Translations under genes and position numbers: made by a program
Part shown: piece after piece, positions 13,902 to 17,050 of the stretch
Numbering within the stretch: position 1 is the stretch's first letter
Layout: each line of letters opens with the position of its first letter
From: Campylobacterales bacterium
GTDB lineage: Bacteria > Campylobacterota > Campylobacteria > Campylobacterales > JAABSR01
Direction: 5' to 3'
Length of the DNA stretch: 53,294 nucleotides
Assembly: GCA_011390245.1 (NCBI GenBank)
Contig: JAABSR010000002.1
Span: 1 to 53,294, forward strand
The notes under the pieces: model-generated
What the model saw: only the letters and a program-made list of their open reading frames with translations
What the model was told of the DNA's origin: nothing
The model's database searches: none

Positions 13902-14969
13902 TTACATCACTATTGGCATTACAATAGTTTGGAAGTTATCACTTTTTAGTATAAAAGGTTGGTTTGTATCATTTAATCCAATTATAAATTCACTTGTATC
14001 AATTTGTGATAGAAAATCTAAAATGTATCTTGAATTCATTGCTATTACAAAATCATTTTCAAATTGTGTTTCAAACTCAAATTGTGTTTGAGCTTCTGAG
14101 TTTTCTTCGCTTAAAGCTTCAAATCCTATCTCATCTCTTCTAAATGTCACTTTTATCTCAGTTGAAATTGAGTTTATCAACTTTATAGATTCTATAACTT
14201 TATCTTTTGGAAGTGTTATATGGTTTTTTATATCTTTTGGGATTATTCTCTCATAATCTGGATACTTACCATTTATTAACTTTGTAAAAAAGAGATAGTT
14301 TGTAGATTTTATGATTAGATTTGTCTCATTGTAGTAAAGCTCTATGTCATTAAAAAAGAGCTTTTGAATCTCAATTATAGCCTTTTTAGGGATGATTAGT
14401 GAAAGTTTATCAACTGAGGGATTTTCAAATTTTACAACAGCCAATCTTCTTGTATCAGTTGCTACAAAATTTATAGAGTACTCTTTTATATCAATTAATG
14501 CACCATTTAGCTCATATTTTGGATTGTTTGTATCAATTGCTGGTATTATTTTTTTAATCGATTGAATTAGATTTAGTGAATCTATTTCTACTTTTGGATT
14601 TCCTTCTACTGTTGGAAATGTTGGAAATTCATCTGCTCCAAATGTTGGTAACTTAAATGAGCTTCTCCCCTGTTTTATATATAAAAATCCATCTTCATCT
14701 TTTAGATTTACCTCTTCATCTTTTAGTCTCTTTATAATATCTAAAATCTTTCTTCCATTAACAGTTGCCTTACCACCTTCATTGAGAGTAAAAGAGTCTG
14801 TAGAGCCTCTAAGTCCTATCTCGTAGTCTGTTGCTTTTATTGTTAGATTCTCTTCACTAGCTATAAATAGTACATGAGATGTGATCTGTGAAGAATCTTT
14901 TTTTTCCAAAAAAGGTTGTAGATTTGTGAGTATATTATCGAGAATACTTTTAGAAATAGAGATATTCAT
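13902..14969 (-). CDS. dnaN: DNA polymerase III subunit beta (sliding clamp)
   Basis: 355 aa clamp fold, C-terminal ...TIVMPIVM, located next to dnaA. Confidence 0.95.
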   Translation of the reverse strand: MNISISKSILDNILTNLQPFLEKKDSSQITSHVLFIASEENLTIKATDYEIGLRGSTDSFTLNEGGKATVNGRKILDIIKRLKDEEVNLKDEDGFLYIKQGRSSFKLPTFGADEFPTFPTVEGNPKVEIDSLNLIQSIKKIIPAIDTNNPKYELNGALIDIKEYSINFVATDTRRLAVVKFENPSVDKLSLIIPKKAIIEIQKLFFNDIELYYNETNLIIKSTNYLFFTKLINGKYPDYERIIPKDIKNHITLPKDKVIESIKLINSISTEIKVTFRRDEIGFEALSEENSEAQTQFEFETQFENDFVIAMNSRYILDFLSQIDTSEFIIGLNDTNQPFILKSDNFQTIVMPIVM

Positions 14970-14980
14970 CTGAGGACTCC

Positions 14981-15108
14981 TTTATATTATAATTTTAAAT
15001 AGTAATAGTAGTATAGGCAATGAATTTGTGAAAACTACTCTTTTTGCCTTATTTTATATAGGCTCTGGCATTGAAAGATATAGAGCTTATTTTTCACATC
15101 TTTTCACA
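14981..15108. promoter_or_regulatory. oriC: Candidate oriC part 1 (dnaN-dnaA intergenic): AT-rich DUE, DnaA-trio-like repeat and DnaA boxes
   Basis: 20-bp all-A/T tract 14981-15000; TAG-TAA-TAG-TAG-TAT 15000-15014; TGTGAAAA 15027-15034; TTTTTCACA 15090-15098 and TTTTCACA 15101-15108 at 10-bp phase. Confidence 0.65.
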
Positions 15109-15144: not shown

Positions 15145-16509
15145 TTACTCTTTTGAGCTTATTTTGTTCTTTAGTTCATCTACTACTATTTTAAAGTCAG
15201 CACTTCCATTTAGTAACTCTTGGACTTTTTTCATGGCTTTACTTACTGAGCTGTGATCTTTCATTCCAAAGTAGTGAGCAAGAGCTGGCATAGAGTTTGG
15301 AGTAAGGTTTCTAGCTAGATATATGACAATCCTTCTTGCATTTGCTATTTGTGTAGATCTGCTTTTACTTTTTATTTCACTTGGTTTTATGTTTAGCTCT
15401 TTTGAGACTACTGAGATGATATCATCTATTGTGATGCTCTCTTTTTTCTCTTTTATTTGCTCTTTTAATATATTTTTTGCAAACTCTAAAGTGATATCTT
15501 GATTCATCAAATTTGCAAAAGCATTGAGTTTTATGATAATTCCCTCAATTTCTCTTATGTTGTTATCCATATTTGTAGCAATATAATCAATAATCTCTCT
15601 ATCAAGATAGATTCCATCAAATTCGCACTTCTTTTTAATAATTGCTATTTTTGTTTCAAGTTCTGGAGGCTGTATATCTGCAACCAAACCCCACTCAAAA
15701 CGACTTTTTAGCCTCTCTTCTAGTCCAGCTATCTTTTTTGGTGGTTTATCACTTGTTAGGATTATCTGCCTGTTTTTGGAGTGAAGCTCATTAAATGTAT
15801 GAAAAAATTCCTCTTGTATTCTCTCTTTGCCCCCAAAAAACTGAACATCATCAATAAGAAGATAATCACATGCTCTATACTTTTCACGGAATCTATCCAT
15901 AGTCTGGTTTCTAATGTGAAATTGCCAATCATTTAAGAACTGCTCACTTGTTATATAGATGACTGATTTTTGCTTTGTTATTGCATGATTTCCTATCGCA
16001 TTTAGGAGATGAGTTTTTCCAAGTCCTGTTCCACCATAGAGCAAAAGCGGATTGAAAGCTAGTCCCTGTTTTGCACAGACAGTTTGCGAGACCTCATAAG
16101 CTAGCTGATTGGATGAACCAACAACAAAAGCATCAAAAGTGTATGAGGGATTTAATATAGTCGATTTTTGCTGCTTATATTCATTGAGCATAACCTTTTT
16201 TGGCACGCTCTTTTTTTCAGTTGACAAAATTATATTAACTTCTGGTTTTACACCAGTATTCATCTCAAAAAGGTGTGCTATTTTTTCGCTATATTTTGTT
16301 TTTACCCAATTTTGAATAAATGGATTTGGTGCTTCATATACGGCAAGGTCGCTTCTACTTGCTTCTTCTGAATACCTTAAGTTTTTTATGTACTTCTCAT
16401 ACTCAAAATTTGATATCTCATCTTTAAGTTGAGATAGTGTAGTATCTCCAAGCAAAAATACCCCCAAAGTTGGTTTCACTATGTGAAAATTATGTGAATA
16501 ATCTAACAC
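15145..16509 (-). CDS. dnaA: Chromosomal replication initiator protein DnaA
   Basis: YGGTGLGKTHLLNAIGNH Walker A, YLLIDDVQFFGGKERIQEEFFHTFN, MKDHSSVSKAMKKV DNA-binding signature; probable real start TTG at 16455. Confidence 0.97.
   Translation of the reverse strand: MLDYSHNFHIVKPTLGVFLLGDTTLSQLKDEISNFEYEKYIKNLRYSEEASRSDLAVYEAPNPFIQNWVKTKYSEKIAHLFEMNTGVKPEVNIILSTEKKSVPKKVMLNEYKQQKSTILNPSYTFDAFVVGSSNQLAYEVSQTVCAKQGLAFNPLLLYGGTGLGKTHLLNAIGNHAITKQKSVIYITSEQFLNDWQFHIRNQTMDRFREKYRACDYLLIDDVQFFGGKERIQEEFFHTFNELHSKNRQIILTSDKPPKKIAGLEERLKSRFEWGLVADIQPPELETKIAIIKKKCEFDGIYLDREIIDYIATNMDNNIREIEGIIIKLNAFANLMNQDITLEFAKNILKEQIKEKKESITIDDIISVVSKELNIKPSEIKSKSRSTQIANARRIVIYLARNLTPNSMPALAHYFGMKDHSSVSKAMKKVQELLNGSADFKIVVDELKNKISSKE
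16474..16501. promoter_or_regulatory. oriC: Candidate oriC part 2 upstream of dnaA: DnaA-box cluster
   Basis: TTTCAC-TAT-GTGAAA inverted pair (16474-16488) followed by TGTGAATAA (revcomp TTATTCACA, 16493-16501). Confidence 0.55.
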
Positions 16510-16570: not shown

Positions 16571-17050
16571 GTGAATATTTTAGGTATTGATCCAGGAAGT
16601 ATAAATTGTGGATATGCCATTATTGAGCTTGATAGACCCATGTTGAGGCTGGTTGAAGCAGGTTTGATAAAGATAAAAGAGAGAGATCTGCAACATCAAA
16701 TACTAGAGTTTGTAGAGGGAATAGACTTGGTTCTTAAAAGATTTCACATAGATGAGGTGGCGATAGAGGATATATTCTTTGCACACAACCCAAAGACTGT
16801 AATAAAATTAGCTCAATTTCGTGGAGCACTCTCTCTAAAAATTCTTCAAGAAATAGGAAATTTTTATGAATACACTCCTTTGCAGGTCAAAAAAGCACTT
16901 ACTGGAAAAGCAAAAGCAGATAAAGTTCAGGTAGCGTATATGGTCAAAAAAGTTTTAAATATAAAAAAAGATATTAAACCTCTTGATATTACAGATGCAA
17001 TGGCTGTAGCAATCACACACTCTCAAAGAGTTAAGTTAAAAAGGTCTTAG
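16571..17050 (+). CDS. ruvC: Crossover junction endodeoxyribonuclease RuvC
   Basis: [44 protein letters not shown] start. Confidence 0.96.

Follow-up and report, generated by a model that had tools for sequence, protein, structure and literature searches.

Both oriC2 unwinding and bipartite looping have been described for Arcobacter butzleri, Sulfurimonas denitrificans and Wolinella succinogenes (PMC5043019). The locus analyzed here comes from an uncultured Campylobacterota bacterium with a 1.68-Mb draft genome in 186 contigs, and lies within a 53,294-nucleotide stretch, hereafter the window. It resembles those three oriC2 regions in its site between dnaA and dnaN, its TTCAC box core, the boxes that also occur upstream of dnaA, the proximal box directed toward the DUE, the distal box of opposite orientation, and the DnaA-trio, which was reported in all three; they differ in having been footprinted and unwound in vitro. 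The oriC of Campylobacter jejuni (PMC6052347) likewise occupies the dnaA-dnaN gap, with twin boxes overlapping by 1 bp and a trio-like array (degenerate in C. jejuni), but it is reported to be monopartite and to need boxes inside dnaA. Helicobacter pylori oriC1/oriC2 (PMC8235120) shares the bipartite organization, the adjoining boxes (ts1-ts2) and a trio, needed for unwinding in H. pylori, while differing in gene neighbourhood, in box consensus and, according to PMC5043019, in a distal oriC2 box that is not oppositely oriented; the basal unwinding system (BUS) of H. pylori is functional (PMC8287927). Box pair, spacer, trio and A/T tract are also found in the incC basal unwinding system of Bacillus subtilis (PMC6669920), together with a distal box that acts in helical phase but tolerates many distances and both orientations. 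Judging from its elements, our locus adds a new example to the epsilonproteobacterial origins already known, which are of the BUS type (a DnaA-box combined with a DnaA-trio), and it very probably represents oriC2, that half of the chromosomal origin in which DnaA-dependent unwinding takes place. Taken by itself such a locus is ordinary, and the comparison of its relatives is more useful.

In the window, dnaN (13902 to 14969) and dnaA (15145 to 16455, with its C-terminus at 15145) both lie on the minus strand, gyrB is found past dnaN, and ruvC (16571 to 17050, plus strand) is divergent and upstream of dnaA; dnaN, dnaA and ruvC were identified by their Pfam domains. The earlier note had let the plus-strand genes begin at ruvC, which starts at 16571. 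Co-localization of ruvC, dnaA and dnaN, which characterizes epsilonproteobacterial origins according to PMC5043019, recurs in most relatives' loci whose ends were covered. The TTCAC core and the orientation of the proximal box toward the DUE with the distal box opposite, described in the same source, are also present in the window, and the helix-5 stretch of its DnaA, KDHSSVSK, agrees with the K/S/S/K residues reported there for the class.

Read from dnaA to dnaN, the gap contains inverted boxes TGTGAAAAG and TGTGAAAAA, a 54-bp spacer and a box GTTTTCACA aimed at the trio, followed by a degenerate AAATTCATT, the triplets CTA CTA TTA CTA, an A/T tract and the dnaN Shine-Dalgarno sequence. Direct reading placed every element where the earlier note had located it, save that the A/T-only tract, the DUE core (14981 to 15001, minus strand), measures 21 bp, one more than the 20 bp announced. 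This tract abuts the Shine-Dalgarno CTCCTTT (14977 to 14983), and when relatives are aligned, the columns on the downstream side of the trio are A/T-rich. The trio array (15000 to 15014, minus strand) reads TAG-TAA-TAG-TAG-TAT on the plus strand and ATA CTA CTA TTA CTA on the minus strand (3'-GAT-5' type on the plus strand). The DUE-proximal box, twin 1 (GTTTTCACA, 15027 to 15035, minus strand), which the earlier note had read on the plus strand as TGTGAAAA at 15027-15034, points at the trio and lies 15 bp from the first CTA; the BUS definition of PMC8287927 asks for three or more trios no farther than 16 bp from a DnaA box, as is the case here. A tandem second box is the commonest BUS arrangement without being obligatory (PMC8287927). 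In the window the candidate for such a box is twin 2 (AAATTCATT, 15019 to 15027, minus strand), which is degenerate and devoid of a TTCAC core while keeping the conserved 8-bp pitch from twin 1. We infer that twin 2 is a bound box; the lead comes from C. jejuni, in which the degenerate twin AATTTCAAC was shown to be bound without a TTCAC core (PMC6052347), so that AAATTCATT may be bound by DnaA as well. On the other side of the spacer (15036 to 15089), distal box 2 (TTTTTCACA, 15090 to 15098) and distal box 1 (CTTTTCACA, 15100 to 15108), both on the plus strand and read directly, are set at a 10-bp pitch, which agrees with the one helical turn previously noted between TTTTTCACA (15090-15098) and TTTTCACA (15101-15108). 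A degenerate third, direct box, ATCTTTCAA, occurs within the spacer (15071 to 15079, minus strand), and 29 of 96 relatives carry a direct TTCAC near this place. The order in which a box points at the trio, followed by the A/T tract, is that described for epsilonproteobacterial oriC2 (PMC5043019) and for BUS (PMC8287927; PMC6669920), and it recurs among relatives.

Loci of relatives were gathered via DnaA plus further stretches and yielded 107 dnaA-dnaN gaps. Removal of redundancy left 96, which represent 18 labelled families as well as named records, all sampled genomes belonging to one order; the relatives share ancestry, and the counts given below are not independent events. The closest DnaA among the sampled genomes is about 68% identical, and the sampled relatives include no second genome of the window's family. 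Out of five consecutive triplets, three or more were of the trio type in 92% of the 96 relatives vs 27% of shuffles, and at least three CTA were found in 71% vs 0.3%. Conservation of the triplets, on which the earlier note had made its proposal depend, is therefore observed in most relatives. In the first 48 gaps, the sequence ahead of the A/T tract was inspected individually, and an 8-bp pitch was the top-scoring choice for the second proximal box in 40 of them. The box models and anchors used for this scoring, for the degenerate-core pairing within 62-66 bp and column profile, and for the motif search reported below had been adjusted by eye to the very sequences analyzed. Among all 96 gaps, we counted 54 TTCAC-to-TTCA pairs at the 8-bp pitch and 53 cases of a distal inverted pair at exactly 10 bp. 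The candidate oriC is thus supported by its elements, their polarity and their recurrence in the 18 families and named records.

DnaA also regulates genes through its boxes. The gap could hence serve to regulate dnaA/dnaN expression through DnaA, the origin lying elsewhere, a reading to which the contact between the A/T tract and the dnaN Shine-Dalgarno sequence lends some weight. TATAAT-like strings, which occur within the spacers of L019, L022, L079, L082, L091 and L092 and are possibly a promoter toward dnaN, also speak for it. We nevertheless consider this reading very unlikely. We know of no part that a trio array plays in controlling transcription. In relatives with a published oriC2, unwinding occurs in the dnaA-dnaN gap (PMC5043019). 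As to GC skew, proposed earlier as a check, the complete relative G002 has its cumulative minimum in the chunk 1616001-1636000, within which dnaA is located (1623397-1624719), as measured on forty 20-kb chunks covering about one third of the chromosome of this relative rather than of the window's own genome. The cumulative skew within the window turns near 16 kb and falls lower near 49 kb, and is therefore not diagnostic.

The locus had been called a compact candidate oriC, which is incomplete, as box cores cluster upstream of dnaA too. In 67 ruvC-dnaA gaps, we counted 292 box cores vs 19 reversed-core controls. Relative to the TTG at which dnaA is likely to start, the window's own cores lie at −99, −44, −33 and −25, and a probable oriC1 spans 16472 to 16501, with cores at 16474-16479 (plus strand), 16482-16490 and 16493-16501 (both minus strand). 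Boxes upstream of dnaA, the mark of a bipartite origin in PMC5043019, are seen here by sequence only, and suggest that the origin is probably bipartite with oriC1 between ruvC and dnaA. Since the C. jejuni oriC is reported as monopartite, the need for oriC1 may vary. As to the start codon, GTG 16509 is where the open frame of dnaA begins, DnaA matches of relatives mostly start near residue 15-19, and GGGGG directly precedes TTG 16455; because of these last two observations, TTG 16455 is the likelier start.

Within the 1.68-Mb draft genome, TTTTCACA occurs 171 times, so that about 0.013 occurrences would be expected in 128 bp vs the three observed. The strict pattern TTTTCACA-N3-18-(YTA)4 has a single match in the whole draft genome, at the 14981-15108 locus, and its reversed control has none. 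A pair-plus-box pattern also matches once in this genome, at the same locus, with no control match. Across the order, it was found in 172 of 299 genomes, although not all matches are at dnaA-dnaN, vs approximately 40 of 299 for its reversed control (hand count of the table). Looser versions were rejected: a TTCAC core with relaxed triplets gave 7 matches vs 8 for the control in the window's genome and is unspecific, and a loose box-plus-trio pattern was about as frequent as its reversed control over 120 genomes.

The main result of the comparison is the distance between the two opposed sets of boxes. Using exact cores and no anchor, the distance from an inverted GTGAA to a direct TTCAC is 63-65 bp in 66 of 96 gaps; the 63-65 bin was picked after the pitch and pair counts had revealed the peak. 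The 60-62 bp bin is empty and the 66-68 bp bin holds two, while shuffled gaps average about 0.02 at 63-65 bp. Further filled bins near 72-74 and 81-83 bp arise because the same geometry is measured from the other member of each pair. With exact cores, 29 gaps miss at 62-66 bp; in many of these the first proximal box is degenerate and reads TTTTCATC (family f8 and Arcobacter-named records) or TTATTCAAC (f13). If one admits the degenerate cores TTCA[CTA] and GTGA[AT] and keeps the best pair found within 62-66 bp, 82 of 96 gaps fit, 80 of them at 63-65 bp; this figure is selected by construction and therefore descriptive, the 66 of 96 being the test. The 14 misfits are L011, L012, L033, L034, L035, L054, L076, L080, L084, L087, L108, L115, L117 and L120.

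Relatives are linked by descent, and the count of 82 depends on choosing the best pair within 62-66 bp, so a spacing inherited without selection, or produced by the choice of boxes, has to be weighed. We regard this as improbable, given that the anchor-free count takes every exact core pair and leaves the adjacent bins nearly empty. Moreover, over the 82 gaps, the distal-to-proximal distance has a standard deviation of 0.8 bp vs 36 bp for the interval between the stop codon of dnaA and the distal box, and equal-length spacers have a median identity of 0.358 vs 0.288 when shuffled, which is near background and indicates that the sequence has diverged while the length (52-54 bp) has not. The four-species study, with A. 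butzleri, S. denitrificans and W. succinogenes among its subjects, reports no conserved box arrangement or pattern, in contrast to the near-fixed spacing measured here. In the texts that we could read, among them the main text of PMC5043019, we found no report of a fixed box spacing in these origins. The spacing bears on the view that they share no box arrangement, and provides a simple sequence rule for locating origins in draft genomes of the group. The distance between opposed DnaA complexes, measurable and near-fixed throughout the order, also offers a handle on whether the origin uses a loop of set size.

By analogy with published relatives, DnaA would bind the DUE-proximal box together with its weak tandem partner, aimed at the trio array; ATP-DnaA would then assemble on single-stranded trios and open the A/T tract, so that the helicase can be loaded. 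About 62 bp upstream, another DnaA complex would form on the distal, opposed pair, and a short loop of set size would bring the two complexes together. We infer this loop tentatively, because the spacing is near-fixed and close to six helical turns, and hold it to be possible, if somewhat short of likely. For the helically phased distal box of B. subtilis, too, action by way of a loop has been proposed, with the phase apparent from 44 bp outward and many positions tolerated (PMC6669920). Such origins can thus do without a rigid loop in general, and a fixed size would set the present ones apart. HobA may bridge the two complexes: the window's genome encodes a protein of this family (L166, G000:C146:4609-5148; PF12163, E 3.7e-76), whereas none was found in 14 control genomes. 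HobA promotes DnaA-dependent DNA bridging in H. pylori, according to work cited in PMC6669920.

The spacer itself retains a few preferred positions. Upstream of the proximal core, G reaches 79% at −17 and C 56% at −27 and −26, outlining a CC-N8-GG-like element. An unsupervised motif search returned AAtaCCtnaatttnGG, which in 62 of 82 gaps stops 11-13 bp short of the proximal box, whereas shuffled spacers gave no preferred position. Near this place the window has GCCT-N10-AGGC (15046 to 15063, minus strand), possibly an inexact form of the element suggested by the relatives' column profile; the motif search picked another stretch there. Some protein may sit on this element. The spacing could then matter through a single spacer-bound protein touching both complexes instead of a direct DnaA-DnaA loop. 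The fixed position of the motif argues for such a bridge; we nonetheless think it rather unlikely, with the window's version inexact, no candidate protein at hand, and HP1021-type TGTTAC sites, tried as the spacer element, present in just 2 of 82 gaps. We know of no protein that binds the CC-N8-GG-like element. Coming back to the loop of set size, these features might together form a module in Campylobacterota, in which an inverted pair at 10-bp pitch is followed by a spacer of 52-54 bp that carries a CC-N8-GG-like protein site, and then by an overlapping pair at 8-bp pitch that feeds the trio, the length of the spacer being selected and most of its sequence not; this is a tentative model, to which we lean slightly less than to its contrary.

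The spacer region also includes the 9-bp stem with one G-U pair pointed out earlier (ATAGGCTCT, 15058-15066, and AGAGCTTAT, 15082-15090), which does exist and could be taken for a functional hairpin or a terminator. The spacer folds no better than shuffles (z of −0.7 in the window, mean z of −0.49 over 46 relatives), coherent complementary covariation was looked for in relatives and none was seen, and the transcribed strand has no T-run after the stem. Such a function is extremely improbable; judging from these comparisons, the stem is incidental and not conserved. In two relatives, L042 and L044, dnaA is 2.7-3.4 kb from ruvC rather than adjoining it, and other sequence therefore lies between the two genes.
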